NCBI RefSeq assembly: GCF_008728195.1
Contig: NZ_CP031600.1
Span: forward strand, 1 to 64,000
Source: Roseovarius indicus
GTDB lineage: Bacteria; Pseudomonadota; Alphaproteobacteria; Rhodobacterales; Rhodobacteraceae
Reading direction: 5' to 3'
Length of the DNA: 64,000 nucleotides
This document shows positions 22,194-45,540 of this stretch, in pieces. A program made the translations under genes and the position numbers. A model generated the notes under the pieces. That model made no database searches. It saw only the letters and a list, made by a program, of their open reading frames with translations, and had not been told where the DNA came from. How positions within the stretch are numbered: position 1 is the stretch's first letter; every line of letters begins with the position of its first letter.

Positions 22194-22224
22194 AATGTAA
22201 TCGCTACAGTCACTGTAGCTTCAA
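22194..22224 (-). promoter_or_regulatory. MerR-type promoter of the transglutaminase-CDF-SpoIIAA operon
   Basis: Read on the minus strand: -35 TTGAAG (22224-22219), a 19-bp spacer and -10 TACATT (22199-22194). The spacer contains the 15-bp perfect palindrome CTACAGTGACTGTAG (22218-22204). The overlong spacer with a central dyad is the hallmark of promoters untwisted by MerR-family activators. Confidence 0.8.
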
Positions 22225-22233
22225 GTCCCGATT

Positions 22234-22796
22234 TCAGGCCGTGTCCTTGGTTACCTTATCGTCATCGTGCATCGCCTTGTGGTGTTCACCATGCGCGTCT
22301 TTCAGGATTCCGACGCCACCCCAAGCCGCGATGCCCGCGACAATCACGCCCACGACAAGGTCCGGCCAGCTCGTTCCGAGCCAAGCCACGAGTCCGCCTG
22401 CGACGACGTTTCCGAGATTGGCCGCGAAGTCGTTCCAGCTGAACGTATTCGCCGCTCGGATGTTCACGTCCGGATCGCGAAGCCGCGTCAGCAGCCAGAC
22501 GCAAAGTGCGTTGACGGCCGCCGCTACCAGCACCATAACAATCATGATCGTGCCAATAGGATCCGATCCGCCAACGTAGCGGCGCCAGGCGTCATAAAGG
22601 ATGCCAAGGGCGAAGAGAATCAGCAGGCCGCCCGAAACATTTGCCGCTCCGCGCTTCCACTTGGCGGAGCGGGGCAGCGCAAGGAGGCTGATTGCGTAGA
22701 CGAAACTGTCCGACAGATTGTCGAGGCCATTGGCGATAAGCGCGCTTGAATCGCCGAATGCGCCCGAGGCGAAGAAAGCGATTGCCAGCCCGATGT
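22234..22796 (-). pseudogene. CDF-type cation transporter, 5' end lost
   Basis: The remaining frame encodes helix 1 (partial) onward: IGLAIAFFASGAFGDSSALI, the metal motif IANGLDNLSDSFVYAISLLA, and a second site SWNDFAANLGNVVAGGLVAW, ending with a His-rich tail DAHGEHHKAMHDDD. This is the compact CDF type without a large C-terminal domain. An apparent ATG at 22812 belongs to the end of the IS427-like element, so the true N-terminus is missing. It stands directly downstream of the stack of insertion sequences at 22.8-27.5 kb. Expression and function are doubtful. Confidence 0.75.
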
Positions 22797-22808
22797 TAGG
22801 GTCAGGAT

Positions 22809-23554
22809 TCATAACCAGTAAATGACGATTGCAGCGAGGGCGATGACCGAGAGGAAGACCTTGGGGCAGCGGTCATAGCGCGTCGCCACGCACCTCGATC
22901 CTTGAGCCTTCCAAACATGATCTCGCTGCGGTTGCGCTGCTTGTATCGACGCTTGTCGTCTTGCGTCGCTTTCGGCCCAGGATACAGGCGCGTATGCCTC
23001 TGTCTTGCAACGCTTCTCGGAACCAATCGGCGTCGTATCCCCTGTCTCCAAGCAGCCATTTGGCGTTTGGCAAGCTGCTCAGCAGCGCCCGCTCGCCGAC
23101 GTAATCGCTGACCTGCCCAGCAGAGACGAAAGAGAGTTGATGGAGCGTCCCGAGCTGTCGCAGATGGCGTGCAGCTTGGAATTCATACCACCCTTGGTGT
23201 GACCGATCAGGCGGCCACGCCCCCTTATTTCGCGGCAATGCTGGTCGCGGTGCGGTGTGCCTTCAGGTAGGTCGAGTCGATGATTACGGTCTTTTCCTCA
23301 CCGTGTTCGGCAGCCAGGCCGACCATCATCCGCGCAAAGATACCTTTCTCGCTCTAGCGCTTCCACAGGCTGTAAAGCGTTTTGTGCGGACCGTAGGCTT
23401 CCGGGGCGTCGCGGCAGCGTAACCTATTGCGATTGATGAAAATAATCCCACTCAAAACCCGTCTATCATCGACACTTGGCGTACCGTGTGACTTCGAGAA
23501 GAAAGGGGAAAGCTTGGTCACCTGCTCGCCAATCAGTCAATACAGATCGCTCAT
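22809..23554 (-). pseudogene. IS427-like transposase remnant with stop codon and frameshifts
   Basis: Pieces of a two-domain IS5-family transposase can be read in order but in different frames: an ATG at 23554 with MSDLY then a TGA where Trp is expected, a segment equal to GIFARMMVGLAAEHGEEKTV and IIDSTYLKAHRTAT, then LLSSLPNAKWLLGDRGYDAD, NRSEIMFGRLKD and finally RYDRCPKVFLSVIALAAIVI. At least one nonsense codon and several frameshifts make it inactive. Confidence 0.8.
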
Positions 23555-23600
23555 GTCACCGCTCCGTTTTCCTGACCGTGAATCGCGCAGCGCAGCTACA

Positions 23601-24891
23601 GGGCACCTCGATTTTTGACCATTTTCGCGACCATGGAGCAGTTGGTGCGACCTGAAGCGCATGGAATGTCGTCGGCAGGCGGATTATTGCATCGGATCTG
23701 ATGATGCGCCGCCCATTTCCGGAGCGGCTTTCGAGATGCCCGGCATGAACTGCGTTCTTTGCTGCCCGATTTTCATACCGGACACGGGTTGATGCGGCGC
23801 AACTGGCAGAGGCGGCGCATGTTGTAGGCGAGATTTTTCAGCCCGATCCTGGCCGTGGCCCGCACCAGCCCGATGGTCCGCACCAGCGTCCCGCCCATGT
23901 CGTTGGTCTGCGCGCCGAAGACGTGTTCCACCCGGACCCGCACGCGGGATTTCGGCCGGTTGCTGCCCTTGGCCTGGTCGGTCAGTGGTTTGCCCCGCTT
24001 GCCCTTGCGGTGGATGTGACTTTTCAGCTCGAGCGCGCGCAGCTTTGCCTCCATTTCCTCGGACCGATAGGCCGCATCCGCCCACACGCCCGAGCCGGTA
24101 TTGCCCCGCGTCAGCAGGTGATCCACTGCCTGGCTATCGTGCAGGGCGGCATCGCTGACGTGGTAGCGCCGGACCAGCTTGTGTTTTCGGTCCACGTTGA
24201 CGTGGTTCTTATAACCATAATGGCTTTTGCCGTGCTTCTTGGTCCAGCGCGCGTCCACGTCTTTCTGGCTGCGCTTGGCGGGCTTGTCTTCCCAATCCTC
24301 GGGAACCTCGCCTGTCTTGATCGCCGCGTTCTCGTCGCGCGTGTTGTGGTTGCGCGGCACCGGCACGATGGACGCGTCCAGGATCTGCCCACCCCGCGCG
24401 ATATAGCCCTGCCGTTCAAGATGGCCGTCGAACAGCTTGAACAGCTCCTCCACCTTGCCCGCCTGCGCCAGTGCGTCTCGATAGAGCCACACCGTCTTGG
24501 CGTCCGGCACCCGGTCCCCGAGCCCCAGCCCAAGGAAGCGCATGAACGAGAGCCGGTCGCGGACCTGATATTCGATCTGGTCGTCGGACAGGTTGTAAAG
24601 CGCGCTCAGGACCAGCGTCTTGAACATCAGTACCGCGTCCATCGGCTTGCGCCCCGCGCGGGACTTGCGATCCGCATCCGGCTTGCGCCAGACCCGCTCA
24701 AGAGCCGGGCGAAACTCCTCCCACGGCACGGCGGCATCGACCTCAACCAGCGGATCCTTCTTGGCGTCACGGCTCGCGTAGCGGTCCGAAAGATCAAATA
24801 AACCCATCTGTGCCATCGTCGTGCCCCCGCTGCCAGTTCACCTCACGATTATACCGCAGCGGCGGGATCAGGGCAATTTTTAGAGGTGCCC
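23601..24891 (-). mobile_element. IS5-family element (IS5-like group), intact
   Basis: A 1291-bp element whose ends start GGGCACCTC and finish GAGGTGCCC, flanked by the 4-bp direct repeat TACA (23597-23600 and 24892-24895). It lies inside the decayed IS427-like element and carries one complete transposase gene. Confidence 0.85.
23773..24816 (-). CDS. IS5-family transposase
   Basis: A 347-residue DDE transposase. The N-terminal part includes FKTLVLSALYNLSDDQIEYQ and RFLGLGLGDRVPDAKTVWLY, common in the IS5-like group. The catalytic Asp lies in GQILDASIVPVPRNHNTRDE, the second in VWADAAYRSEEMEA, and the Glu in RVRVEHVFGAQTNDMGG. The frame is intact with both terminal repeats present, so activity is possible. 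Confidence 0.9.
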   Translation of the reverse strand: MAQMGLFDLSDRYASRDAKKDPLVEVDAAVPWEEFRPALERVWRKPDADRKSRAGRKPMDAVLMFKTLVLSALYNLSDDQIEYQVRDRLSFMRFLGLGLGDRVPDAKTVWLYRDALAQAGKVEELFKLFDGHLERQGYIARGGQILDASIVPVPRNHNTRDENAAIKTGEVPEDWEDKPAKRSQKDVDARWTKKHGKSHYGYKNHVNVDRKHKLVRRYHVSDAALHDSQAVDHLLTRGNTGSGVWADAAYRSEEMEAKLRALELKSHIHRKGKRGKPLTDQAKGSNRPKSRVRVRVEHVFGAQTNDMGGTLVRTIGLVRATARIGLKNLAYNMRRLCQLRRINPCPV

Positions 24892-24916
24892 TACAATCAA
24901 TGCATCTTGACCCTAG

Positions 24917-26361
24917 CACTACTTTGGCAGATTTTTTCTGATCCGATAATCTCCGGATTCACGGGAGGCGTTTTGGGTGATTTATAGGGAGCCAGCTTTG
25001 AGGGAGGCTGGCGGATTATGGGGAACTGGCGGAGCGATCTGGAGACCTGGCTGTCGCCGTTTGTTGCGGCGCTTGGGCACAAGACGCGGGGGCGGATGTG
25101 TCCGGCCTATGTTGCCGGGCTGATTGGCCCGGGCGATCGCAAGAGCGTGCAGCCGATGGCGGCGCGGGACGGGGCGGTCAGCTATGACCAACTGCATCAT
25201 TTCATCGCCGACGGGGTCTGGGACAGCGCGCCGCTGGAGGCGGCCTTGCTGGCCGAGGCCGACAGGCTGGTTGGCGGCGAGGAGGCCTTTCTGGTCATTG
25301 ATGATACCTGTCTGCCGAAGAAGGGCGAACGCTCGGTCGGGGTTGCGCCGCAATATGCCTCATCGCTGGGCAAGACCGCGAATTGTCAGTCGCTGGTCTC
25401 GGTAACACTGGCCTCGCGCGAGGTGCCGGTGGCAGTGGGGTTGCGGCTGTTTCTCCCAGAGGTCTGGATCAACGATCCCGACCGCATGGCCCGAGCCCGG
25501 GTGCCGGAAGATCGGCGAACGGCCCTGAGCAAACCTGAGATTGCCATCGAGGAGATCGACCGGGTGAGGGCTGCGGGTGTCCGCTTCGGCTGTGTGCTGG
25601 CCGATGCGGGTTACGGATCGAGCGGGCCTTTCCGCCAGGCTCTGAGCACGCGCGGCCTCACCTGGGCGGTCGGCCTGTCGCGACGCCAGAACGTCTATCC
25701 GGCGGATGTCGGGCTGGTCTTTCCCGAGGCCGGGCGCGGTCGGCGCCGCAAATATCACCTCCCCGACCGCGTTGCCGTTTCCGCCGAACAGATGCTGGGG
25801 GACGAGAAATGGCGGAAGGTCAGCTGGAGGCGTGGGACCAAAGGCAGGCTGAATTGCCAGTTCGCCGCAACCCGTGTCCGCATCGTCGATGGCCACCGGC
25901 ATCGCATGGCAGATGGCCGTGTGCAGGCCATGCCCGGTGACGAGGAGGTTTGGCTGATCGGCGAACGCCGTGCGACCGGCGAGCGGAAATACTACGCCTC
26001 GAACCTGCCAGCCGGCACCTGCCTCAAGACGCTCGCCGCCGCCGTCAAGGCCCGATGGATCTGCGAACAGGCGCATCAACAACTCAAGGAGGAACTTGGT
26101 CTCGATCATTTCGAGGGGCGGTCCTGGACGGGTCTTCACCGACACGCACTGATGACGATGATCGCCTACGCCTTCCTGCAATCCCGCCGCCTCAAGGCTG
26201 CGGGACGGGGAAAAAAGAGTCCCCGGACCACCCCCGCAACCAACCATGCCAGCCGTCAGGCAAGCCATCCTCGACATCCTGGCGCGTCCACCGCCTATTC
26301 GCTGCCCTCATTGTGAAAGGCTCATCGCAGAACGCCCAGAAAAAATTCTGCCAAAGTAGTG
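24917..26361 (+). mobile_element. IS701-family element, intact
   Basis: A 1445-bp element starting CACTACTTTGGCAG and ending in the inverted CTGCCAAAGTAGTG, flanked by CTAG on both sides (24913-24916 and 26362-26365). The CTAG target was formed by the end of the IS427-like element and its TA duplication, so this insertion is younger than that element. Confidence 0.85.
25018..26316 (+). CDS. IS701-family transposase
   Basis: A 432-residue DDE transposase of the IS701 type. Characteristic blocks are YDQLHHFIADGVWDSAPLEA near residue 55, the first catalytic Asp in AFLVIDDTCLPKKGERSVGV, FGCVLADAGYGSSGPFRQAL with the second, and the Glu in CEQAHQQLKEELGLDHFEGR. The C-terminus is a Pro/Ser/His-rich tail. 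It is the only gene of the element and appears complete. Confidence 0.9.
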   Translation: MGNWRSDLETWLSPFVAALGHKTRGRMCPAYVAGLIGPGDRKSVQPMAARDGAVSYDQLHHFIADGVWDSAPLEAALLAEADRLVGGEEAFLVIDDTCLPKKGERSVGVAPQYASSLGKTANCQSLVSVTLASREVPVAVGLRLFLPEVWINDPDRMARARVPEDRRTALSKPEIAIEEIDRVRAAGVRFGCVLADAGYGSSGPFRQALSTRGLTWAVGLSRRQNVYPADVGLVFPEAGRGRRRKYHLPDRVAVSAEQMLGDEKWRKVSWRRGTKGRLNCQFAATRVRIVDGHRHRMADGRVQAMPGDEEVWLIGERRATGERKYYASNLPAGTCLKTLAAAVKARWICEQAHQQLKEELGLDHFEGRSWTGLHRHALMTMIAYAFLQSRRLKAAGRGKKSPRTTPATNHASRQASHPRHPGASTAYSLPSL

Positions 26362-26364
26362 CTA

Positions 26365-27469
26365 GTCATCTGAATCTAAAGTTCGACGCATAGTGTCTGC
26401 TGCGTTCGCTGGCAGAACCGTTTGACGGATGCGAGGATATCATCGGCGGACTTGACCCATCTGTAGGGTTTGGGATTTTCACTATGGGTCTCGATAAAGG
26501 CGACGATGTCGGCCTCCAGTTCGGTGGTGGAGCGATGCACACTGCGTTGCAACTGCTTGCGGGTCAGTTCCGCGAACCAACGTTCCACTTGGTTTATCTA
26601 GCTGGCAGATGTCGGGGTGAAGTGGATGTGCCAGTGCGGACGGCGGGACAGCCAAGCCTTAATTTTCGGCGTCTTGTGCGTGGCGTAGTTGTTCATCACC
26701 AGATGCACGTCCGGCCCTTCCGGCACCGCTGCGTCGATTTTCTCAGAAAATCGAGGAAGTCAGTCGCCCGGTGGCGCTTGTCGCATTTCTCAATCACCGC
26801 GCCTGTTGCGATGTCGAGCGCAGCGAACAGCGAGGTTGTTCCGTGAAGGACATAGGTAAGGGTTCTCCGCTAGGCGGCACCGGACGCTCGCGGTCCAATG
26901 CCAGGATTTGGGATTTCGCCTCCACGCACAACACGATGGCTCGGTTCGGCGGCGACATGTAGAGACCGACGACGTCCTGCACCTTGTCGACGAACAACGG
27001 ATCAGTGGACAGCTTGAACGTCTCGCTCCGGTGGGGTTGCAGGCCGAAGGCGGTCCAGATCCTGCGGATCTTGGTGTGCGACCGGCCCGTCTCGGCCGCC
27101 ATGGTCCGGATCGACCAATGGGTGCCGTATTCAGCGTGCGCTCGATCACCTCGGCCACCTGCGCGACAGACACAGTGCGCGGCCGACCGGGGCGGTATTC
27201 ATCGGTGAGCCCTTCGATCCGATCCTTCACGAAACGCCGGCGCCATTTTCAGAAAGTGTGTTCATGGAATCCGAGCCGGGCACCGACTTCTTTGTTTTGC
27301 AACCCCTCCGAACAGAGCAGGATTATACGGCATCGGTCCGAAAGCAATTGCGCCGCCTTTTGCCGCCGAACCTGTGCCGCCAGAAAGGTTCGCTTCTCGT
27401 CGTTTAGAACCACCTCGTCCGCCACACGCCCCACAATCGCATCGTCTCCTCATATATTTCTGACAATGA
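26365..27469 (-). mobile_element. Decayed IS630-family element
   Basis: Remnant of an IS630-type element. Its ends are judged from TA dinucleotides at 26363-26364 and 27470-27471 with the inward sequences GTCATCTGAATC and TCATTGTCAG, which are only loosely similar. The transposase gene is broken. Confidence 0.6.
26376..27434 (-). pseudogene. IS630-family transposase remnant
   Basis: Family blocks can be read in order but in several frames: LNDEKRTFLAAQVRRQKAAQ and RIILLCSEGLQNKEVGARLG at the start, KDRIEGLTDEYRPGRPRTVS, then RRIWTAFGLQPHRSETFKLS, VDKVQDVVGLYMSPPNRAIV and, at the end, VERWFAELTRKQLQRSVHRS to the C-terminus. A TAG replaces Trp just before the last block, and there are frameshifts. 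Clearly inactive. Confidence 0.85.
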
Positions 27470-27841: not shown

Positions 27842-28501
27842 TCAGTCCGCGTACCACATGCGCGACAGGTTGGCCTTGGCCTTGAACACGCGGTCGAAGG
27901 CCGGGGTCTTGCCCTCTGCATCATGAAGAGCGCGCGCAGCGACATCGAGATCATGCAAGATTTCTCGGCGGGCCGGGTCGCGAACCCAGCTTGTGATCCA
28001 GCCGACCACCGCCACGCGCTCGCCCTCGGTGACCGGCTCCACGCGATGCAGCGTTGATGTCGGGTAGAGCACCATCTCTCCGGCAGACAGCTTGATGGCA
28101 CGGTCTTCCATCGCGTCTTCCATGACCAATTCCCCGCCGGTATAGACGTCGGCCGCGGTCAGGCTGAGCGTAAAGGAAAGATCCGTGCGGTTCCCGTTCA
28201 TGGTCGGGTCGTCAACATGGGTGCCGTAAGTCATGCCTCCGCGATATCGCGACAAGAGCATACGCGCATATTTACGCGGACGCGCCACCGATTTGACGAT
28301 TTCGTTCGCGTTCAGGGCCTTGCGCACCTTTTCGAAAATCGCATCAAGTTGTGGCGATTTCTTGGCCTGCAGGTTGGACTTGACGTCTCGCGCATAGCGC
28401 CCTGCGGTTGCGCGGCCGTCTTCGTAGTCAAGAGAATTGGCGGCCCCTTGCAGGGCCGCCAAATCCTGTGCGTTCAGCACATCGGTGATAACGATAGTCA
28501 T
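27842..28501 (-). CDS. piuC: PKHD-type Fe(II)/2-oxoglutarate hydroxylase, PiuC/YbiX family
   Basis: YbiX/PiuC proteins are Fe(II)- and 2-oxoglutarate-dependent dioxygenases usually linked to iron or siderophore uptake. The 219-residue protein has the metal triad in GTHVDDP (His about 95, Asp about 97) and LHRVEPVTEGERVAVVGWIT (His about 152, with Arg about 162 for 2-oxoglutarate), and the family features RYRGGMTYGTHVDDPTMN and GEMVLYPTSTLH. It starts 3 bp after the stop codon of the upstream acidic exported protein gene, so both are in one operon. No TonB-dependent receptor is adjacent, which is unusual for this family. Confidence 0.9.
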   Translation of the reverse strand: MTIVITDVLNAQDLAALQGAANSLDYEDGRATAGRYARDVKSNLQAKKSPQLDAIFEKVRKALNANEIVKSVARPRKYARMLLSRYRGGMTYGTHVDDPTMNGNRTDLSFTLSLTAADVYTGGELVMEDAMEDRAIKLSAGEMVLYPTSTLHRVEPVTEGERVAVVGWITSWVRDPARREILHDLDVAARALHDAEGKTPAFDRVFKAKANLSRMWYAD

Positions 28502-28504
28502 GGT

Positions 28505-29431
28505 CTACTGGCTCTCGCCTTCGCCACCGACGCTGGCTTTGCCTTCACCTTCGCTACCGGCGCTGGCTTCACCTTCACCTTCGCCAGCGTCCAGTTCAAG
28601 CGCGGCAAGCTCCATGCGCGCGGCTGCACCGTAAATGATCGAGGGATCCATCTCAAAGTCGCCCTCTCCCTGGATGTCGCCATAGGCAGCCTCGGTGGCG
28701 GCGACCTGTTCAAGAAGGGCCGCAGCGACGTCCGCAACAGCCGGATCGTCGCTGTCGGTCATCTGCCCGGCCTCGGTCTCGACGACCCGGAGGAAGCCCC
28801 AGCTATCCTGGTACTCGTGCAGGTTCGATACCTCGCCGCCCTTGACGGCCACGGTGTATTCATCGCCTGCAGTGCGGGTCAGTGCGACCAGTCCGGCGAC
28901 CTGCTGGGCTGGGGTATAATTGGCGCGGGCTTCTTCATGCGTCGCGCGCACCTTGGCGAACAGGGCTTCGAGTTCGGCGTAATCAGCCCTGGCTTCGGCG
29001 GCGGCGGCCAGCGCCTCGATCTCTCCACGCAGGCGGCTCAGGCCCTGCTCTTCCAACTCTTCGGCCACGGCATCATATTTTTCCTCGATCGGGTGACCGA
29101 CATGAGTGCGCGCGGCCTCCAGATCGCCTGCCTCGTAGAGTGCCAGACCGGCGCAGATATGGCCTTCAATGAAGGACAGCCCGCTCAGGAACGCGATGTC
29201 GGGATCGAGGCTGGACGCGCCTTCACCTTCACCTTCGCCACCAGCGCTGGCTTCGCCCTCGCCTTCTCCTTCGGCTTGGGCCAGCAGGTAGGTCCCGTCA
29301 TTTCGCAGGTCCCCTGCCGCCGCCAGATCGGGCGCGATTGCACCTGCTGCACTCAATGCGGCGAGACCGCCGAGGGTTGATATGCGCCGTGCGACAACGC
29401 GGCGTGGCTGTACCGATTTGTTCTGAGCCAT
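28505..29431 (-). CDS. Exported acidic protein with Gly-Glu repeats, function unknown
   Basis: The 308-residue product begins MAQNKSVQPRRVVARRISTL, a twin-arginine-type signal, with a cleavage region near LAAAG. A mature low-complexity segment AEGEGEGEASAGGEGEGEGA follows at about residues 50-75, and a second Gly-Glu-Ala-Ser block forms the C-terminus. Between them is a helical domain with EGHICAGLALYEAGDLEAAR and THVGHPIEEKYDAVAEELEE, whose His and Glu residues could bind a metal or haem. I do not recognise a named family. The ATG follows GGAGAAAGTA. Being upstream of, and coupled to, piuC suggests a periplasmic part in iron or haem handling, by inference only. Confidence 0.7.
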   Translation of the reverse strand: MAQNKSVQPRRVVARRISTLGGLAALSAAGAIAPDLAAAGDLRNDGTYLLAQAEGEGEGEASAGGEGEGEGASSLDPDIAFLSGLSFIEGHICAGLALYEAGDLEAARTHVGHPIEEKYDAVAEELEEQGLSRLRGEIEALAAAAEARADYAELEALFAKVRATHEEARANYTPAQQVAGLVALTRTAGDEYTVAVKGGEVSNLHEYQDSWGFLRVVETEAGQMTDSDDPAVADVAAALLEQVAATEAAYGDIQGEGDFEMDPSIIYGAAARMELAALELDAGEGEGEASAGSEGEGKASVGGEGESQ

Positions 29432-29561
29432 TACTTTCTCCATGCTAGATAAGCTTTAGGTGACTAAAATACTCGGATTTGCCAATCCTCAAAAATTGCC
29501 TTGCATGTTCCAGCCGGTAGCCGTTGAACAACAGCGTCTGTCTCTTTGACGCGAAGAGCGG

Positions 29562-29888
29562 TCACACCCCACGCGGGGCGGCAAGAATGACTGTCGCCCC
29601 CAGCAAACAAACGGCTGTGCCAAGAAGATCCCACCTATCAGGCCTATGTCCTTCGGCCAACCACATCCACAGAACCGAGGACGCTATATAGACGCCACCA
29701 TAGGCTGCGAATGCGCGGCCTGCGGCGACAGTCTCTACCTGCGCCAGGAGCCATCCGAACACCACGAGTGCGGCAATGCCAGGCACAATCCAAAGTGCTG
29801 AGGCACCGAGACGCCACCAGGCCCAGATGGCGAAACACCCTGCAATTTCGGCAAGTGCCGCGAGCGGAAAGGCAAGCGCAGCGGGCAT
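29562..29888 (-). CDS. YnfA/UPF0060-family small membrane protein
   Basis: A 108-residue integral membrane protein with four hydrophobic helices, related to small multidrug-resistance-like transporters. Family landmarks are [40 protein letters not shown] and [21 protein letters not shown] use the ATG at 29888, giving the usual family length; an upstream in-frame ATG at 29909 would overlap the merR-type gene. It lies immediately downstream of that gene and is probably co-transcribed with it. Substrate unknown. Confidence 0.88.
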
Positions 29889-29889
29889 C

Positions 29890-30318
29890 TCAGGCGCCGA
29901 TCTCTTCATGGTCGGTCAGGCATTCGGAATGGTCGCGCAGTACCTCGAGCACACGGCAGTCTGAAGTTTGCCCGCCGCTGCACTCATGCACCATCCGCTT
30001 CAATTCCGTCCGCAGCGCCTCGAGCCGCGCCAATCGTTGCTCGACCTGTTTGAGTTGCCGACGGGCTATAGCATCCGCCTCCGCGCAGGACTTTCCCGGA
30101 TGATCGCTGAGATCGAGGAGCTCACGGATCGCGTCCAACGCGAATCCCAATTGCCGTGCGTGCCGGACGAATGACAAGCGGTCGAGTTCGGCGTCGCCAT
30201 AGCGTCGTTGGCCCCCCTCGGTCCTGCCGGGCTCAGGCATAAGTCCGATCTGCTCGTAATACCGGATGGTCTGCACTTTTGTTCCGGTCTTCTTCGCCAG
30301 CGTCCCAATCGTCAGCAT
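29890..30318 (-). CDS. MerR-family metal regulator, PbrR/ZntR/CadR-like
   Basis: MerR regulators bind promoters with overlong spacers and activate them when loaded with metal. The 142-residue protein has the N-terminal winged helix ([20 protein letters not shown] and [20 protein letters not shown]), a dimerisation helix (about 80-112), and Cys at about 78, 113 and 121 within [14 protein letters not shown] and SDCRVLEV. This three-Cys pattern is that of Pb, Zn and Cd sensors rather than Cu or Hg sensors. The ATG at 30318 is preceded by GGGGAGCGG. A CTACAG dyad lies just upstream (30337-30351). It is the only MerR gene in the window and the natural candidate for all four MerR-type promoters. 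Confidence 0.88.
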
Positions 30319-30336
30319 TTCCGCTCCCCACATTAC

Positions 30337-30351
30337 CTACAGTGGGTGTAG
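30337..30351. promoter_or_regulatory. MerR-type dyad upstream of the merR-like gene
   Basis: CTACA-GTGGG-TGTAG is an inverted repeat 19 bp upstream of the start codon, similar to the dyads of the other MerR-type promoters. It probably mediates autoregulation. The flanking -35 and -10 elements are weak in either direction. Confidence 0.6.
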
Positions 30352-30428
30352 CTTTATGCGGTGCGCATCACAAGCTTCACCTTAGTTTCACAGGTCGGTG
30401 ATTGTTGGCCGATCGATGACAATCGCGC

Positions 30429-30459
30429 TTGAACCTACAGTAGCTAGAGGATGTAAACG
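30429..30459 (+). promoter_or_regulatory. MerR-type promoter in front of the SCO-like leader ORF
   Basis: -35 TTGAAC (30429-30434), a 19-bp spacer with CTACAGTAGCTAGAGG, and -10 TAAACG (30454-30459). The sequence from -35 through the spacer is identical to the promoter at 37793-37823, showing duplication of a promoter block. Confidence 0.8.
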
Positions 30460-30495
30460 CACACACAATAGAGAATCACGTTCGGGCGGAGCGGC

Positions 30496-30654
30496 GTGAG
30501 GCTTTCAGGTCTTCAAAAGGTGTTGTGGGTGCTTGCGGGCGTGACCGCGTTCGTTTTCATCTGGCTGTTCCTGTGGTTTGACTATTTTGTCGCCCAGCTT
30601 CGAGACTCGACGGGCGAACTACGGAGGTACCGTGAAAAGTTAGTTGAGGACTAA
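30496..30654 (+). CDS. 52-residue membrane ORF, duplicated N-terminus of a SCO-family gene
   Basis: The GTG-started frame encodes MRLSGLQKVLWVLAGVTAFV, continues through a single hydrophobic segment and ends ELRRYREKLVED. The first 30 residues closely match the N-terminus of the SCO protein at 37860 (MRLSGLQNVLWMFAGVAAFV), and the promoter and leader DNA are shared too, so this is a duplicated 5' end lacking the SCO domain. It may be a relic or a small expressed membrane peptide. The DsbD-like gene starts about 236 bp downstream. Confidence 0.55.
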   Translation: MRLSGLQKVLWVLAGVTAFVFIWLFLWFDYFVAQLRDSTGELRRYREKLVED

Positions 30655-30890: not shown

Positions 30891-32993
30891 ATGCGTATAA
30901 CTTTGGCAGGGTATCAGGGATTGCTTGTCGGTCTCGCACTCTTTCTTGTTTTAGTGGCAAGCCCTGTTCGCGCCTTGGAATCCAATGCGTATCGTTCCGA
31001 AGTACTGACGGCACGTTTGATCGTCGCGGAAGCAGGAATCGCCCCAGGATCGCAGTTCCTTTCGGCGGGTTTGAAGATTGAACTGGAGGAAGGATGGAAA
31101 GCGTACTGGCGGTCGCCAGGCGAGGTTGGCCTGCCGCCGGAGATCGATTGGGAGGGGTCCACAAACCTTGAATCCGTCGACATGCTTTGGCCCGCACCCA
31201 CGCGTTTCCGCGCCTTCGGAATTGAAAATTTCGGCTATGCCAAACAAGTAATATTTCCATTGCAGTTGCGGCTTGCGAACTCTGATAGAGCGGCCGAGCT
31301 GAAGGGACTCGTCGATCTGCTGATCTGCTCCAATGTGTGCATTCCGGAAAGGTTTGAATTGACACTCCCTGTGCCATTGGGAACGGGCGTCGATGCGAAA
31401 GCCGCGACCGATATCGCGACATGGGCCGCTCGCGTACCTGTTGCAGGGCCAGAAAGTGCAATAGCGGTCTCGGGCGCATCGCTGAAGCAGGATCAGGCAT
31501 TGGTTGTTCAAATGACGCGGCCTTCTGGCTGGAACAATCCCGATCTTTTTCCAGAGTTTGGTGCAGGCTCTGCATTCGGCGCACCCGACATCCGCCTTAC
31601 AAGTGATCGCACCGGTCTCTGGGCAAGTATCCCGATTCTCGCGTTAAGCGAGGAACAAACCTCCCTTCGAATTACGGTCGTAGACGAGGATGTCGCGGTT
31701 ACATTCGATGATGTGAACACTACCGACGTTGTACCTGCGCCACCTTACGCATCCGAGACCAGCCAAGATAGGGGTCAGTTTTTCCCGATTCTCTTGCTGT
31801 CCTTCCTGGGAGGGTTGATACTGAACTTAATGCCATGCGTCTTGCCCGTTCTATCGATCAAATTCGGATCGGCGCTCCGAATGAAGAATCGCTCCGTTTC
31901 ACAATTGCGCGCGGGGTTTATCGCTACGGCTGGGGGAACTGTTGCTTTCATGTGGGTGCTGGCCTTGGCGGTCATAGCGCTGCAGACGCTCGGATATGCC
32001 GTTGGGTGGGGCGTGCAGTTTCAGAATGCATATTTCCTGATTGCACTCATTCTCGTTGTCGGACTCTTTGCGGCAAATTTGTTTGGAGTTTTTGAAATTT
32101 CTTTGCCCAGCAGCTGGATGGCTAGGCTATCTGGCCGCTTTGGGCGGGGGTATGCCGAAGACTTCTCCACTGGCGCTCTGGCTGCGATACTTGCAACGCC
32201 TTGTTCCGCCCCGTTGCTGGGGACAGCCATTGCCTTCGCCCTTTCTGGCACGACAGGCGATATACTTGCGGTTTTCACAGCGATGGGGATTGGGCTTGCA
32301 CTGCCATATATTCTGGTTGCCGCTTGGCCTGGTTTCCTGTCCCGACTGCCCAAACCGGGACCCTGGATGATAAGCTTGAAAATTGTTCTCGGATTGCTGC
32401 TTGCCGGAACCGTTGCATGGCTATGCTGGGTCTTGATTGGTGTGACGTCGCCAACCCTCACAGGCCTCGTGCTGCTGGGTCTTGGGCTCATCGTACTGGC
32501 TGCGAGAGCCTATCAGGTTCAGCCCAGTAACGGTTTGCTGTGGGGAATGACTGCGGTTTTGGGCATGACATTGGCGGCCCCCGCACTGCTGCCAAATAGG
32601 CCCGCTGATGTAACAAACTCGATCGCTTCTTACTGGGTCGAGTTCGACCGGTCCCGGATCGCGCGTGAAGTGTCGCAGGGCAAAACTGTATTCGTGGACG
32701 TTACTGCGGATTGGTGCATCACTTGCAAAGCAAACAAAACCCTGGTCCTAGATCGTGAACCAGTTTTTGGAGCACTTGGCGGGGAAGGCGTGATTGCAAT
32801 GCGCGCGGATTGGACGCGACCGGACGCGACAATCCAATCCTATCTCGAGGCACACGGCAGATACGCAATTCCGTTCAACATCGTCTACGGTCCAGATGCG
32901 CCTGAAGGCATCATTTTATCTGAATTGCTATCCGTGGATGCGGTTCTCGAAGCGCTGTCGGCTGCCAATCTCAGCGCTGTCCGAAAACGATGA
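30891..32993 (+). CDS. DsbD/ScsB-like thiol-disulfide transmembrane protein
   Basis: DsbD/ScsB proteins carry reducing power across the inner membrane to periplasmic thiol proteins. The 700-residue protein has a signal peptide (residues 1-28), a periplasmic N-terminal domain with a CSNVC pair in LLICSNVCIPE, a central eight-helix membrane domain with the paired Cys in NLMPCVLPVLSIK and ATPCSAPLLGTA, and a C-terminal thioredoxin domain with CITC in VTADWCITCKANKT. All three Cys pairs are intact. The ATG at 30891 follows AGAGG. It stands between the SCO-like leader ORF and the convergent ccm operon, and would supply reductant for cytochrome c and copper-site maturation. Confidence 0.9.
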   Translation: MRITLAGYQGLLVGLALFLVLVASPVRALESNAYRSEVLTARLIVAEAGIAPGSQFLSAGLKIELEEGWKAYWRSPGEVGLPPEIDWEGSTNLESVDMLWPAPTRFRAFGIENFGYAKQVIFPLQLRLANSDRAAELKGLVDLLICSNVCIPERFELTLPVPLGTGVDAKAATDIATWAARVPVAGPESAIAVSGASLKQDQALVVQMTRPSGWNNPDLFPEFGAGSAFGAPDIRLTSDRTGLWASIPILALSEEQTSLRITVVDEDVAVTFDDVNTTDVVPAPPYASETSQDRGQFFPILLLSFLGGLILNLMPCVLPVLSIKFGSALRMKNRSVSQLRAGFIATAGGTVAFMWVLALAVIALQTLGYAVGWGVQFQNAYFLIALILVVGLFAANLFGVFEISLPSSWMARLSGRFGRGYAEDFSTGALAAILATPCSAPLLGTAIAFALSGTTGDILAVFTAMGIGLALPYILVAAWPGFLSRLPKPGPWMISLKIVLGLLLAGTVAWLCWVLIGVTSPTLTGLVLLGLGLIVLAARAYQVQPSNGLLWGMTAVLGMTLAAPALLPNRPADVTNSIASYWVEFDRSRIAREVSQGKTVFVDVTADWCITCKANKTLVLDREPVFGALGGEGVIAMRADWTRPDATIQSYLEAHGRYAIPFNIVYGPDAPEGIILSELLSVDAVLEALSAANLSAVRKR

Positions 32994-33092
32994 AACAGTG
33001 CCGTTGCATTGCTCAAGAGAGGCAGAACCTGCAATCGTTCAGTTTCAGGTGAAGGGAAAGCTGTTATGTATCTGAGACCTCGCGGCCCCAAT

Positions 33093-34244
33093 TTATTCTT
33101 TGATCCGATCCAATCGGGCCGTGGCGGCGGCACGCGTCGGGTCGGTTTCCGGAAGGCTTTCGGCCAAGCTGCGCGCTTTGCCGGCGGCGTTCTGGGCAGC
33201 ATCAAAGTCACCCAACACACTGTACGCCTCCGCGAGCCGAAGCCATCCTTCAAGATTGTCTGGGTCATCCAACAATCGCGCCGCCAAGCGGTCAACCATG
33301 GAGCGGACAAAAGCGCTGCGCTCCTCGACTGACATATCCTGTGCGGCCTCGATATCGACCGCACGGGGGCCACGTGCGTCCCGTGAGTCCGGAATGAAAT
33401 CAGCTTGGGTGACAGGGTTCTCTCCGACCTGTTCCCCCAATCGGTTGGCGACAGACAGGAAAAGCTCCATCCACGGATAGGCGCGATCCGCTCTCTTGAG
33501 ACGCTCGATCAAAAGCGCCCTCGCTTCATCTGGAACCCCTTCCTGTTCGAGGATCCGGGCCCTATAGAAAATTGGGCCTGGATCATCAGGGTCCATCTCT
33601 GATGCACGTTCGATCACGCTTTCCGCTTGCGGCGTCACGACCCCATTCTCGGCTGCGATCAAGGCCTCGGCAAATTGTAATAGAGTAGCGATACCTGCAT
33701 CATCGCGAACAGCGACGTGTTCGAATGCATCGACAGCAGCGTCGTAGCGACCCATGCGCATGTAAGTCTGACCGAGCAGACGCCAACCTTCGCTTGGACC
33801 ACCCGACTCGTCTGCTTGAAGACGGGCTTTTAATTTCTGGGTCAGCTCCGCGAGGTTTGCGGCTTCCTCGGTTTCATATGCGCGAGACGCCAGAGGCTGG
33901 CTTTCGATCTGTGGCGAGCCGATTTGAGAATACAGAGCGAAGGCTACCAATGGCGTGGCAATGGCGGACGCGAAGATGGTGCTTCGCCCACTTGCGCGCG
34001 ACGACTCACGTGTCGCAAGCCGACCGGCAGCCAGAATGCGGCGTTTGATTTCAACCCTGGCCGCGTCGGCCTCGGTAACGGATATCAGATTCCGCTCCTG
34101 ATCAGTATCAATTTCGGAAAGCTGATCCTTGAGGATAACCAACGCTCCATCCTTTCTGTTCAGGACTTCACCCGTTCGATAGAGACCGGACAAGAACAGA
34201 AGGACAGTGATGGATGCCATAGCGCCTAACACCAACCAAATCAT
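33093..34244 (-). CDS. ccmI: Cytochrome c maturation protein CcmI
   Basis: CcmI helps bring apocytochrome c to the haem ligation complex. The 383-residue protein starts with a membrane helix (MIWLVLGAMASITVLLFLSG), a cytoplasmic leucine-zipper-like segment (DGALVILKDQLSEIDTDQER), a second membrane helix (FASAIATPLVAFALYS) and a periplasmic TPR region (about 125-300: GWRLLGQTYMRMGRYDAAVD). A further repeat-like segment at the C-terminus reads GWLRLAEAYSVLGDFDAAQN. Its ATG overlaps the ccmH stop codon by four bases. It is the last gene of the ccmFGHI operon on the minus strand. Confidence 0.92.
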   Translation of the reverse strand: MIWLVLGAMASITVLLFLSGLYRTGEVLNRKDGALVILKDQLSEIDTDQERNLISVTEADAARVEIKRRILAAGRLATRESSRASGRSTIFASAIATPLVAFALYSQIGSPQIESQPLASRAYETEEAANLAELTQKLKARLQADESGGPSEGWRLLGQTYMRMGRYDAAVDAFEHVAVRDDAGIATLLQFAEALIAAENGVVTPQAESVIERASEMDPDDPGPIFYRARILEQEGVPDEARALLIERLKRADRAYPWMELFLSVANRLGEQVGENPVTQADFIPDSRDARGPRAVDIEAAQDMSVEERSAFVRSMVDRLAARLLDDPDNLEGWLRLAEAYSVLGDFDAAQNAAGKARSLAESLPETDPTRAAATARLDRIKE

Positions 34245-34726
34245 GGGTTTCTCCGTCCTTCATTTTCATTAAAAATGGCCTCGAACTCACGCTCTTCATC
34301 GGGGCTCAGTGGATCAGCAGTGCCATCAAGAACCGCCCTGCTTCGGCGCCTGATTGTGACAAAGACAACGCCAATCCCAACGGCAAAAAGAACCGCAGGG
34401 CCGAACCACAACAGATACGTGGCGGGTTTCAGTCGCGGCCTGAAAAGGACGAAGTCACCGTAGCGATCTACGAAAAACGCAATGATCTCGTCATCTGTTT
34501 CACCTGCAATCAGACGTTCGCGCAGCAAGGTGCGCATCGTTCGGGCAACACCCGCATTCGAGCTATCGATGTCCTGATTTTGGCAGACAACGCAGCGTAA
34601 CTGCTTTGAGAGCTCCCGGGCGCGCGACTCAAGCACCGGATCATCCAGCAACTCATCTGGCTCCACAGCCCATGCCGCGGTTGTCGCGGCAAGCACCAGC
34701 ACCAGTGAATAGAGCCAACCCTTCAT
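34241..34726 (-). CDS. ccmH: Cytochrome c maturation protein CcmH
   Basis: CcmH is a membrane-anchored periplasmic thiol protein that prepares apocytochrome Cys residues for haem attachment. The 161-residue protein has a signal peptide (to about residue 20), the redox motif RCVVCQNQ in LSKQLRCVVCQNQDIDSSNA (about 40-59), a conserved FVDRYGDFVLFRPRLKPATY, and a C-terminal membrane helix (LLWFGPAVLFAVGIGVVFVT). Length is standard. It overlaps both neighbours by four bases (ATGA), showing tight coupling within ccmFGHI. Confidence 0.93.
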   Translation of the reverse strand: MKGWLYSLVLVLAATTAAWAVEPDELLDDPVLESRARELSKQLRCVVCQNQDIDSSNAGVARTMRTLLRERLIAGETDDEIIAFFVDRYGDFVLFRPRLKPATYLLWFGPAVLFAVGIGVVFVTIRRRSRAVLDGTADPLSPDEEREFEAIFNENEGRRNP

Positions 34727-35277
34727 GATTGACCACCTGCTGCGGCCAACGCAGCACGAATTTCATCCTGTGCCTCTGGCGTCACAATGGGACCAACATA
34801 GCGATAGACTACGATCCCCGTTCCATCGATCACGAAAGTCTCCGGTACGCCGGAGATACCCCACTCAATCCCGACGCGGCCTTCGCTGTCTGATCCGATC
34901 CTCTCATAGGGGTTGCCAAGCTCCTCCAGCCAATTGGCTGCATCTGCTGATTTGTCCATGTAGTTGATCCCCATCAGCCGAACACCGTCCTGTTCGACAA
35001 ACTTGGTGAGCACCGCATGCTCAGCACGACAGGGCACGCACCATGAAGCGAATACATTGACCAAAACCGGCTCGCCAATGCTACGAAGGGCTGCGGTCGA
35101 CAGTCCGGGTGTCTGCGTGCCCTCTACCGGTGGGAGTTCAAAATCCGGAACTGGTTCGGAGACCAAAGCGGAAGGGATTGCGTTAGGATCACGGTCTGGG
35201 TTGAGCCCCCAGAACAAGAAACCACCCAAGACCACTGCGACCAGCGCTGGCATCGCGAGAAGGATTTTCTTCATCAT
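34723..35277 (-). CDS. ccmG: Thiol-disulfide oxidoreductase CcmG/DsbE
   Basis: CcmG is a membrane-tethered thioredoxin-like protein that reduces apocytochrome c or CcmH. The 184-residue product begins MMKKILLAMPALVAVVLGGF (membrane anchor), continues with FELPPVEG, and has the active site VNVFASWCVPCRAEHAVL (Cys about 80 and 83), the ccmG-type acidic GINYMDKSADAANWLEELGN segment and the cis-Pro in GISGVPETFVIDGTG. I chose the ATG at 35277, which is two bases after the ccmF stop codon. The upstream frame is overlap with ccmF. Confidence 0.93.
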   Translation of the reverse strand: MMKKILLAMPALVAVVLGGFLFWGLNPDRDPNAIPSALVSEPVPDFELPPVEGTQTPGLSTAALRSIGEPVLVNVFASWCVPCRAEHAVLTKFVEQDGVRLMGINYMDKSADAANWLEELGNPYERIGSDSEGRVGIEWGISGVPETFVIDGTGIVVYRYVGPIVTPEAQDEIRAALAAAGGQS

Positions 35278-35278
35278 A

Positions 35279-37270
35279 TCATTCCGCCGGTTGAAGCGCT
35301 GACGACCGGCTCTTTGGCGACGGCGCACCCACCCGCAATCTCCGGTCCGATAGCGAAAGGGACCCGCCAAGCACCAGCATCGTCGCTCCGATCCATATCC
35401 AATTAACCAGTGGTTCGTAGAGAATGCGCAAATTCCACTGGCCCGACGCCGTTTTGGCCGCAGGCTCACTGATGGTGACGTAGAGATCACCTCTGAGCGT
35501 TGATCGGATTGCAGATTCGGTTGTGGACGTCCCCGCAACTGGATAATTTCTGCGCTCCGGACGAAGAAGCGTAATCTCCCGTCCATCTTTCAAGACGCGA
35601 AGCTGGCCTTGTTGTGCGATGTAGTTTGGACCACGCAACCATTCGACGCCGTCAAATATTACGTCAAAACCGGCGATTTCTACGGTCGTCCCCGGTTCTG
35701 CGAAAAGAACACGTTCTTCCTTCCAAGCAGTTGAACCTACGAACCCAAGCACAAGCATTGCAACGCCAAGATGCGCGAGCGTCATACCGTGCGCAGCGCG
35801 CGGCAGGTTCCGCGCGCGACGCAGCGACTGAGAAAGCGGTAGATCAAAGAGCTTGATGCGCATTGCCCATTCGCGCAACGTCGCAAAAAAAACCCAGGCT
35901 GCAATCCCTATTGAGACCACTGCAAGCAGGGGCCCGTCTGTCTGAAGGTACCAAACGATCCCCGCAACACCAATCGCGATACCAAAAACCAAACGCAGCC
36001 GCTGCCAGATACCGGGAAGATCGGCCCGTTTCCAAGACAGGAATGGGCCAACTCCCATTATAATGACGAGCGGCAGCATGAAAGGGATAAACGTCGCGTT
36101 GAAATACGGTGGTCCGACAGAGATCTTTTCTTCAGTCACCGCTTCCACAAACAATGGATAGAGTGTTCCAAAAAGGACGGTCGCCGTTGCGGTCGCGAGC
36201 AGAAGGTTGTTGAGCAAAAGCCCAGCCTCGCGGCTGATTGGCCGAAAGATGCCACCCGATCCAAGCTGAGGCGCGCGCCATGCGTAGAGCGTCAGAGATC
36301 CCACAATTGTCAAACCAAGAAGGCCTAGAATGTACACACCGCGCGCAGGGTCAACCGCAAACGCGTGAACAGATGTCAAAATGCCGGACCGGACGATAAA
36401 TGTCCCCAGAAGTGACAGTGAAAAGGTCAGGATGGCTAAAAGAATGGTCCAGCTTTTGAACGTATCCCGCTTTTCCGTGACAATAGCCGAGTGCAGGAGT
36501 GCCGTGCCCAGAAGCCATGGCATGAAGGATGCGTTTTCAACCGGGTCCCAAAACCACCAGCCACCCCAGCCAAGTTCGTAATAGGCCCACCAAGAGCCGA
36601 GTGCGATCCCTGCAGTGAGGCTGATCCAGGCCGTCAGAGTCCATGGCCGCACCCAACGCGCCCATGCGGGATCCACCCGGCCCTCTATCAGAGCCGCGAC
36701 CGCGAAGGAGAAGACGATCGAGAAGCCGACATACCCAAAATACAAGAGCGGGGGATGCATCGCCAACCCGATGTCCTGCAGAAGCGGGTTAAGATCCGTG
36801 CCATCCAGAGGCGGCGGGAAAACTCGCTCGAACGGATTGGACGTGAAAAGCATGAAGCTCAGGAAACCGACGCTGATCCAGGCTTGAACGGACAACGTTC
36901 GTGCCTTGAGACCCGCCGGAATGTTTCTGCCCAGCAGCGCGACCCCAGCCCCGAAAATAACGAGAATAAGGGTCCAGAGAAGTAGGGACCCTTCGTGACT
37001 GCCCCAGGTGCCCGCAAACTTGAAGATCATCGGCTTCAGCGAGTGGGAATTCTCCACCACGTTTCGAACCGTGAAGTCACTGACAACAAATGATCGCATG
37101 AGTGCCCCGAATGCCATGGCAACCAACACCAGCTGCAGCGCGGCTGTCGTCTTGGCACTTTCCATCCAAAGCACGCGCCCCGTGCTTGCCCCGACAATTG
37201 GCAGGATGCTTTGAACAATCGCGACGGCAAGCGCCAGGATAAGTGCGAATTGTCCGATCTCAGGTGTCAT
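35279..37270 (-). CDS. ccmF: Haem lyase CcmF
   Basis: CcmF attaches haem to apocytochrome c at the periplasmic face. The 663-residue polytopic protein has the WWD-type signature in the segment GWGGWWFWDPVENASFMPWL (about residues 235-255) and the family blocks GTWGSHEGSLLLWTLILVIF and MHPPLLYFGYVGFSI near 120-180, with later conserved His in the membrane part. About 14 hydrophobic segments are visible. The start ATG at 37270 is preceded by AGGAGA; the longer frame adds 18 unlikely residues. It is the first gene of ccmFGHI, about 240 bp downstream of a MerR-type promoter, with no ccmABCDE in the window. Confidence 0.93.
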   Translation of the reverse strand: MTPEIGQFALILALAVAIVQSILPIVGASTGRVLWMESAKTTAALQLVLVAMAFGALMRSFVVSDFTVRNVVENSHSLKPMIFKFAGTWGSHEGSLLLWTLILVIFGAGVALLGRNIPAGLKARTLSVQAWISVGFLSFMLFTSNPFERVFPPPLDGTDLNPLLQDIGLAMHPPLLYFGYVGFSIVFSFAVAALIEGRVDPAWARWVRPWTLTAWISLTAGIALGSWWAYYELGWGGWWFWDPVENASFMPWLLGTALLHSAIVTEKRDTFKSWTILLAILTFSLSLLGTFIVRSGILTSVHAFAVDPARGVYILGLLGLTIVGSLTLYAWRAPQLGSGGIFRPISREAGLLLNNLLLATATATVLFGTLYPLFVEAVTEEKISVGPPYFNATFIPFMLPLVIIMGVGPFLSWKRADLPGIWQRLRLVFGIAIGVAGIVWYLQTDGPLLAVVSIGIAAWVFFATLREWAMRIKLFDLPLSQSLRRARNLPRAAHGMTLAHLGVAMLVLGFVGSTAWKEERVLFAEPGTTVEIAGFDVIFDGVEWLRGPNYIAQQGQLRVLKDGREITLLRPERRNYPVAGTSTTESAIRSTLRGDLYVTISEPAAKTASGQWNLRILYEPLVNWIWIGATMLVLGGSLSLSDRRLRVGAPSPKSRSSALQPAE

Positions 37271-37511
37271 TTTGCGTTCTCCTGAGTAGCGCTTCTGCAT
37301 CCGAGCCGGACGAGGTTTCCGCATTGGGGGAATTCAGCATGATCATCGTTCATCGTTCATTCTAGTGAGATCATATCGCGACATTCTCCACTTTCCGCCT
37401 GTGTTCGCTTCTGTGAATCGCAAACGGGATGGGGGTGGGCGGAAAACCGAGTGGGATGAAGTTCTTTGTGCGTGCATGCCGTGAGCAGAATCCGACAGTT
37501 GATTCGCGTTG

Positions 37512-37542
37512 TTTGTAGTTCCTGCAGTCGCTGTAGGTTCAA
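37512..37542 (-). promoter_or_regulatory. MerR-type promoter facing ccmFGHI
   Basis: On the minus strand: -35 TTGAAC (37542-37537), a 19-bp spacer starting CTACAGCGACTGCAGG, and -10 TACAAA (37517-37512). The 19-bp spacing and CTACAG dyad match the other MerR-type promoters of this window. Metal control of a cytochrome c maturation operon would be unusual. Confidence 0.75.
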
Positions 37543-37792
37543 GCGTTATTCTAGACTGATACCTTAAAAAATGACTCATGCTTGCAGTGCATCTGCGTAG
37601 CAGCTTTATATCTGCAGGTCCGTTTTCCGCAGGCGTCGGATTTAGCGGAACTTGCCGTTGCCTTCCCTCGATGGCCACCCGTAGGGTCAGACGAAGCAGC
37701 GAAACATTGAGTGACGGCAGGTTTTGAAGCGCTGAAAAGAGAGCATTGACTTCACAGGTGCGTGACGTGCTGCCGCAGGTCAGGAATCACGC

Positions 37793-37823
37793 TTGAACCT
37801 ACAGTAGCTAGAGGATGTAAACT
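37793..37823 (+). promoter_or_regulatory. MerR-type promoter of the SCO-to-CtaG operon
   Basis: -35 TTGAAC (37793-37798), a 19-bp spacer with CTACAGTAGCTAGAGG, and -10 TAAACT (37818-37823), 36 bp upstream of the GTG start of the first SCO gene. It would drive the long plus-strand series from 37860 to 49375. Confidence 0.8.
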
Positions 37824-39545: not shown

Positions 39546-39573
39546 TACGCGGTCAGAGATAGGAGAAATTGTC

Positions 39574-42036: not shown

Positions 42037-42039
42037 TCC

Positions 42040-42498: not shown

Positions 42499-42520
42499 GC
42501 TCCCGCCAAGACCTTAAAAA

Positions 42521-45516: not shown

Positions 45517-45540
45517 GATTACTTTGGCACCGGCAACGAA

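Follow-up and report, generated by a model that had tools for sequence, protein, structure and literature searches.

A probable Zn/Cd/Pb-type MerR regulon on a plasmid-sized replicon of Roseovarius indicus, predicted to include cytochrome c maturation genes

Why should genes for cytochrome c maturation and oxidase assembly stand behind promoters of the kind that metal sensors use? The question is raised by the first 64 kb (hereafter the window) of the 125,285-bp contig C3 of Roseovarius indicus (NZ_CP031600.1, assembly GCF_008728195.1), which, from its size and its relatives, is presumably a plasmid. In the window a gene for a metal-sensing MerR protein, merR, lies near genes for metal exporters, for SCO-type copper proteins, and for DsbD and CcmFGHI. 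An earlier note, made from the DNA letters alone, had proposed a metal regulon of four MerR-type promoters that takes in ccmFGHI and the oxidase-assembly genes. Comparative genomics supports such a regulon, as a site precedes ccmF in every block carrier examined and SCO1 in nearly all relatives, and the other targets are exporters or L,D-transpeptidase-like genes; the number of sites, however, falls from four to three. We consider it likely that the window holds part of a Zn/Cd/Pb-type MerR regulon on a plasmid-sized replicon, one that would also induce the thiol-handling half of cytochrome c maturation.

MerR proteins activate transcription through distortion of a long promoter spacer, realigning the -35 and -10 elements on metal binding. 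The four promoters have the form originally described, that is, TTGAAG or TTGAAC, a 19-bp spacer starting with CTACAG, and a -10-like hexamer (Table 1); with a dyad inside the spacer, they belong to the MerR-activated promoters, in which a dyad occupies a spacer of 19 or 20 bp between -35 and -10. The core pattern occurs five times in the window, compared with 0.05 times per 64 kb in order-1 Markov shuffles (n = 20), the fifth match being a CTAAAG variant at 19923 on the minus strand. The whole genome (6.17 Mb, 5 contigs) was then searched with patterns drawn from the four sites, as the earlier note had suggested. The 12-base start TTGAASYTACAG alone proved unspecific (5 genome matches, 2 for the reversed control) and was rejected as a genome-wide test. 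A longer strict pattern returned 5 sites and none in the control: the window's four and one more, flanked by the genes for a 74%-identical MerR and for a ZntA-like ATPase. The relaxed pattern TTGAANCTNNAGNNNCTNNAGNNNNTA, with 15 fixed bases, found 8 sites, with none for its reversed control and a chance expectation of about 0.01 genome-wide by a uniform-base estimate. Each of the eight faces a metal exporter, a gene resembling L,D-transpeptidases, or one of the SCO, DsbD and ccmF genes. Because the patterns were derived from the window's own sites, only the four outside it count as independent. C1:1782615 faces the ZntA-like ATPase beside the 74%-identical MerR (merR2); C1:331321 faces a gene for a 211-residue CDF-like protein, divergent from a third MerR gene; C2:63608 faces a gene for a 784-residue ATPase-like protein (C2:61191-63545); and C2:64841 faces an L,D-transpeptidase-like gene (C2:64020-64700). 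The last three labels were read from translations.

Two of the window's promoters share one origin. The 198-bp stretch 30387-30584 is a copy of 37751-37948, which holds the SCO1 promoter and the 5' end of the gene; the view of four independent promoters was rejected, and the four sites count as three, because those at 30429 and 37793 are copies of one SCO1 promoter. What had been taken for an SCO-like leader gene in front of DsbD is instead what remains of the SCO 5' end, 52 codons followed by a stop. Among 80 loci picked by MerR similarity, the DsbD-CcmIHGF block lies between merR and SCO1, in the arrangement of the window, in 8; in most of the remaining loci SCO1 directly faces merR. From the duplicated stretch and these block-less loci we infer that the block most likely entered together with the duplication, leaving DsbD behind the copied SCO1 promoter and the SCO remnant. 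DsbD proteins at least 97% identical to that of the window were found in 2 of 394 family genomes (its own and G341), the next best match being 54% identical; seven plasmid records carry one more than 80% identical, and three of these plasmids were examined. Roseovarius sp. AK1035, a marine environmental bacterium, is among the carriers of the block.

The ccmF site lies outside the duplicated stretch. It was found in 13 of the 13 block carriers examined (the window, the 8 loci, three plasmids and one genome region), in six sequence forms. The left arm of its dyad is invariably CTACAG, and the right arm reads CTGCAG, CTGTAG (a perfect mirror), CTACAG or CTTCAG. Between the window and locus L061, 24 of the 27 bp of the site are identical, compared with 37 of 87 aligned positions over 81 bp upstream and 48 of 95 over 90 bp downstream. 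The chromosomal ccmF, whose product is 51% identical, has no site in the genome-wide list obtained with the relaxed pattern. One further CcmF gene, at L057 (71% identical), also lacks a site and is not a copy of the block.

The base module, merR with TGase-CDF (a transglutaminase-like gene, TGase, and a CDF exporter gene) and SCO1, recurs in many Rhodobacteraceae; its near relatives are mostly Rhodobacteraceae or Roseobacteraceae records, some of them plasmid-borne. With at most two mismatches in 14 fixed positions, and with the window included, a site was found upstream of SCO1 in 72 of 73 cases (49 exact, 21 with one mismatch, 2 with two, many reading CTCTAG) and of TGase in 62 of 63, of DsbD in 9/9, of CcmF in 9/10 (the miss being L057) and of the L,D-transpeptidase-like gene in 8/9. 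The single TGase miss (L046) runs into masked N, and the SCO1 miss (L049, 7 mismatches) is a distant SCO match. Exact matches were present in 2 of 70 stretches upstream of CDF genes, as expected if CDF is transcribed from the TGase promoter. When 2000 random 440-bp stretches of the window were scored, the best match had 6 mismatches in 994 and 0-1 in 37, the latter presumably covering real sites. The upstream counts leave out stretches shorter than 200 bp and the gene maps leave out matches below 30% of the query; 2 of 139 sites in the site-to-gene mapping had no mapped gene. Selection of the loci by MerR similarity, and the near-identity of many of them, make these counts non-independent. A scan of the family matched 51 of 394 genomes, the window's own included, and the reversed pattern gave 0 in every row. 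Among the matches listed, 34 sites in 30 loci face ZntA (11), TGase-CDF (9), CDF-type genes (6, three of them at 30-34% identity), SCO1 (4), L,D-transpeptidase-like genes (2, by resemblance) and, in two family genomes (L102 and L114), membrane protein genes that we take to be permease-like. On two related plasmids (L156 and L161), CcdA, represented by the same protein accession, has an exact site of its own.

The merR product contains the Pfam domains MerR and MerR-DNA-bind, and three of its cysteines, presumably metal-binding, align with cysteines of CadR 6jgv and of 5gpe. This places it with the CadR/PbrR/ZntR divalent-metal sensors, which have three cysteines including one in the dimerisation helix; the first of the three is typical of divalent-metal sensors and is not known from CueR. 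Family models did not yield a named sensor type: the protein scored 120.3 bits with PRK09514 (ZntR), 120.2 with CueR, 109.7 with MerR, 108.4 with ZntR and 107.5 with CadR-PbrR, and reached the NCBIfam equivalog cut-off of none of CueR, ZntR, CadR-PbrR or MerR (151.45 bits for CadR/PbrR TIGR02047, 167.95 for ZntR TIGR02043 and 147.4 for CueR TIGR02044). The earlier assignment to a PbrR/ZntR-type regulator is therefore kept as far as the three cysteines and the targets go and given up as a name; by the way it would work, the protein is probably a Zn/Cd/Pb-type MerR filed under no named equivalog. The sites may be bound by this protein or by one of two chromosomal MerR paralogues (C1:331339 and C1:1782705), which adjoin sites of similar pattern. 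A YnfA/UPF0060 gene follows merR and also follows the chromosomal merR2 (L001), a recurrent pairing.

ZntA, CDF and ZIP among the targets point to Zn, Cd or Pb as the effector, which is most likely zinc. In Epibacterium mobile BBCC367, the CzcD protein PEPIB2_31 was reported only at 1 mM Zn (PMC6308992); in that genome (LR027553-LR027556) the CDF of the module is the 32nd listed gene of its plasmid and, by this position, would be PEPIB2_31. Plasmid pRLO149_83 of Roseobacter litoralis carries the module with five sites; R. litoralis grew at 0.08 mM Zn and R. denitrificans failed at 0.02 mM, whereas copper tolerance was reversed, R. litoralis being the less tolerant (PMC3141670). In Mesorhizobium, Zn and/or Cd induce the genes for CcdA, for CycY (in one strain) and, with Zn, for a PbrC-like signal peptidase II (PMC3668242). 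Copper may play a part as well, given that in Rubrivivax CadR and CopR have common targets, with copper cross-talk (PMC11591864). The published data indicate zinc as the effector of the core module; no report of a metal-regulated ccmF was found in the parts of the open-licence literature that were covered.

Table 1. Features of the module in the window (positions count from the first letter of the window; ORF, open reading frame).
Feature	Position	Strand	Basis or remark
Weaker MerR-type site (CTAAAG), facing a short L,D-transpeptidase-like ORF	19893..19923	-	8/9 regions with at most 2 mismatches; outside the earlier note
SpoIIAA-like protein	20105..20467	-	Pfam
CDF cation exporter	20439..21467	-	Pfam; longest ORF, true start probably inside
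Transglutaminase-like protein (TGase)	21394..22164	-	Pfam
MerR-type promoter, TGase-CDF-SpoIIAA operon	22194..22224	-	62/63 TGase upstream regions
Second CDF-family cation transporter	22234..22812	-	Pfam
YnfA/UPF0060 membrane protein	29562..29909	-	Family scan; overlaps merR stop
merR, metal-sensing MerR protein	29890..30321	-	Three CadR-like cysteines; upstream ATG at 30333 also possible
Dyad just 5' of merR, possibly autoregulatory	30336..30351	-	Exact in 50/81 merR upstream regions, window included
Duplicated SCO1 promoter and 5' end	30387..30584	+	Copy of 37751-37948
MerR-type promoter facing DsbD	30429..30459	+	Copy of SCO1 promoter; 9/9 DsbD upstream regions, window included
DsbD-like reductase	30891..32993	+	Pfam (DsbD_N, DsbD_TM, thioredoxin-like domain)
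CcmI	33093..34244	-	NCBIfam, above cut-off
CcmH-like (LRCxxC)	34241..34726	-	Best NCBIfam match NrfF, below cut-off
CcmG/DsbE	34723..35289	-	NCBIfam, above cut-off
CcmF, second copy	35279..37270	-	Chromosomal CcmF 51% identical
MerR-type promoter facing ccmFGHI	37512..37542	-	13/13 block carriers, six sequence forms
MerR-type promoter, long SCO1-to-CtaG operon	37793..37823	+	72/73 upstream regions with at most 2 mismatches of 14, 49 exact
SCO1-like copper protein	37860..38462	+	Pfam
DsbB and DsbA-like proteins	38468..39573	+	Pfam
PCu(A)C copper chaperone	39678..40040	+	Pfam; ORF shorter than in relatives' annotation
Second SCO, M23 peptidase, DUF411, ZIP transporter	40040..43303	+	Family scan
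LspA, Lnt, small protein, penicillin acylase family, CtaG-like	43308..48467	+	LspA and acylase by scan; Lnt and CtaG by order and relatives' annotation

Family scans bore out the identities of merR and the neighbours that the earlier note had named (Table 1). The cytochrome c genes belong to maturation system I, with the CcmF/NrfE haem lyase (TIGR00353), CcmG (TIGR00385) and CcmI (TIGR03142) above the curated cut-offs. A complete system I set, with CcmABCDE on the same replicon, was not found: CcmE and CcmB occur once each, only on chromosome C1 (CcmA, CcmC and CcmD were outside the search), so that cytochrome c maturation is only partly encoded on the plasmid. DsbD exceeds the cut-offs of Pfam DsbD_N, DsbD_TM and Thioredoxin_7 and misses the NCBIfam subfamily NF001419 (118.6 compared with 330 bits), and the CtaG-like ORF scores far below the CtaG model cut-off. 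A single open frame (38887-40040) takes in both DsbA and the beginning of PCu(A)C, which are separate genes in annotated relatives.

Around these genes, several further features were seen. Just downstream of the long operon (48749-50335) are a third SCO-like gene, which was confirmed, and a second CtaG-like one, labelled from a weak self-match and its translation; 50564-55421 holds an MntR-like regulator, a cytochrome c peroxidase-like gene and a phosphonate-type ABC system, in the order found in L156, L157 and L161 and under the labels used there. The L,D-transpeptidase-like ORF behind the conserved weaker site (19440-19901) has no Pfam domain and seems truncated near transposase-like ORFs. 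Three ORFs of 451 codons with identical translation (14466-15821, 17842-19197 and 55680-57035), presumably transposase-like, lie around the island, and similar ORFs occur on C2 (L181). Near merR (27842-29443) are a 2OG-Fe(II) oxygenase-like gene and a gene for a protein with repeated EGEGE stretches, which has no Pfam match.

In the mechanism that we propose, a MerR dimer would sit on the dyad inside the 19-bp spacer, and metal binding would bring -35 and -10 into register and so activate transcription. One output would be the control of export and uptake, through the CDF transporters and ZIP and, on other replicons, ZntA-like ATPases. A second would be the assembly of oxidase copper centres (SCO, DsbB, DsbA, PCuAC, SCO and CtaG), together with lipoprotein and wall enzymes; the third, the added block, would supply DsbD and CcmFGHI, which make up the half of cytochrome c maturation that donates electrons and ligates haem, with CcmB and CcmE remaining single and chromosomal. 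The purpose may be to sustain cytochrome and oxidase assembly while the paired cysteines of the regular factors are taken up by thiol-seeking metals, and the partial plasmid set fits spare capacity for the steps that such metals poison. The fuller version of this idea is tentative, and we would put it at somewhat below even chances: a mobile regulon that carries a spare, metal-induced DsbD to CcmG to CcmH half (with CcmF and CcmI) and oxidase copper delivery, overproduces the poisoned steps, and has recruited thiol reductases repeatedly (DsbD-CcmFGHI in the window, CcdA elsewhere on plasmids, and a related block among copper genes). By analogy, partial support for target protection may come from a Rubrivivax cadA mutant, in which cadmium lowers cytochromes c and b, an effect ascribed to haem synthesis (PMC7283390).

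Several points weigh against a metal regulon extended to ccm. Variation in the ccmF site is confined to the right arm, which is imperfect in most of the 13 carriers; CTTCAG, present in three, mirrors the left arm poorly. The leaders are long, roughly 240 bp to the ccmF start common to relatives (37270) and about 430 bp to DsbD, with the ORF of the SCO remnant between. The block is rare and probably entered once, the 80 loci include many near-identical copies, and the plasmid stretches of R. litoralis and E. mobile that were examined carry the module without the ccm block. The sensor has no equivalog assignment, its best scores being tied between the CueR and ZntR models; the zinc phenotype of R. 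litoralis could be attributable to its ATPase or to other plasmid genes; and binding at, and induction of, ccmF, dsbD and SCO1 in this genome are predictions from sequence.

Some of these points would suit a ccm block that is only a passenger, having entered beside merR with DsbD behind a copied SCO promoter and ccmF under no real metal control. The DsbD site is indeed a duplicate of the SCO1 promoter, the leaders are long, and the CcmF proteins of the 11 other carriers are 95.8-97.3% identical to that of the window, as one insertion predicts; yet the ccmF site lies outside the duplication, has a second arm unlike that of the SCO1 site and is kept in all 13 carriers despite diverged flanks, and CcdA on the two related plasmids has its own site, which leaves the passenger very unlikely. 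A different question is which protein acts. Both chromosomal paralogues adjoin sites of the same pattern and merR2 is 74% identical, so that C1:331339 or C1:1782705 might mainly run the window's promoters instead of the plasmid merR; the retention of merR beside the sites in a recurrent module, with a dyad of its own, argues otherwise, and we think such control quite unlikely. It would in any case be compatible with a Zn/Cd/Pb-type regulon that includes ccmFGHI.

The effector and the purpose can also be read differently. We consider it very unlikely that the regulon is mainly copper-responsive, with a CueR-like sensor driving copper-centre assembly genes and ccm: the three cysteines align as in CadR, 26 of the 34 family sites among the matches listed face ZntA, TGase-CDF or CDF-type genes, reports on the module name zinc and not copper, and the cousin stretch on plasmid pDSHI03 yields no match to the pattern even when one mismatch is allowed. 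What recommends copper is the cargo of SCO, PCuAC, DUF411 and CtaG, the place of CueR among the top NCBIfam scores (if below its cut-off), the setting of the related DsbD-CcmIHGF block on pDSHI03 in a CueR/CopA/multicopper-oxidase cluster, and the overlap of CadR and CopR targets in Rubrivivax. As for purpose, DsbD, CcdA, DsbA, DsbB and CcmG recur in the regulon and might serve periplasmic thiol chemistry against the metal (thiols kept reduced, metal precipitated) rather than cytochrome assembly, in line with the speculation of the Mesorhizobium authors about metal binding or sulfide formation (PMC3668242). Thiol chemistry seems an unlikely purpose, however, as the haem lyase consists of CcmF, CcmH and CcmI, and SCO and CtaG indicate oxidase assembly. 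We know of no role of this lyase in sulfide chemistry.

A metal regulon that covers ccmFGHI would tie a classic type of metal sensor to respiratory-chain assembly through conserved DNA sites, beyond gene neighbourhood, and makes testable why cytochrome c biogenesis genes recur in metal-resistance regions; the Mesorhizobium authors themselves stated that the precise role of the induced homologue was still to be addressed (PMC3668242). Induction of ccmFGHI and SCO by zinc or cadmium would mean that the assembly of cytochromes and oxidase is a target which the cell defends against those metals.

The earlier note knew of no such arrangement, and this stands in part. No report of ccm or SCO genes under a MerR-type metal regulator was found in the parts of the open-licence literature that were covered, and a comparison of MerR-family regulons dealing with CadR, PbrR, ZntR and CueR names, in the part covered, no ccm or SCO target, although in Vibrio it counts genes for cytochrome c among the candidate targets of CueR (PMC1526738). 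Precedents do exist in the Zn- and Cd-induced CcdA beside CadA of Mesorhizobium (PMC3668242) and in the observation that Roseobacter plasmids carry genes for cytochrome c synthesis and metal detoxification together (PMC5513947). The CadR/PbrR regulons of Pseudomonas and Cupriavidus metallidurans resemble the present one in the dyad within a 19-bp spacer, the cysteine-bearing MerR protein and the exporter targets, and PbrC, encoded in the pbr locus, is predicted to be a signal peptidase, as LspA stands in the operon here (PMC1526738); they usually form one divergon, whereas here several promoters also cover SCO, DsbD, ccmFGHI and CtaG. ZntR-zntA shares its kind of target, the same motif facing a ZntA-like ATPase on this chromosome and at 11 of the 34 family sites among the matches listed; the ZntR consensus, a 22-bp palindrome of ACTCTGGAGT and its mirror (PMC1526738), differs, and the ZntR equivalog cut-off is missed. 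Mesorhizobium cadA-ccdA has the cytochrome c biogenesis gene ccdA downstream of the metal ATPase gene, induced more than 4-fold by Zn and Cd, but only CcdA stands beside cadA, and in the part of the source covered neither ccmF nor the promoter type is named (PMC3668242). A further likeness is pDSHI03 of Dinoroseobacter shibae, with a DsbD-CcmIHGF block in the same order and an L,D-transpeptidase (CcmF 73% and DsbD 48% identical), set instead among copper genes (CueR, CopA, multicopper oxidase) and with a two-component system beside ccmF. No MerR site of the present pattern was found there within one mismatch, and a generic dyad scan gave no output, although it demanded perfect 7-bp arms and missed the CueR/CopA site too; the identification of the two-component system as CopRS was dropped, none of the 25 best models per protein reaching its cut-off. 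With this cousin block placed among copper genes, blocks of the kind are found in two metal contexts.

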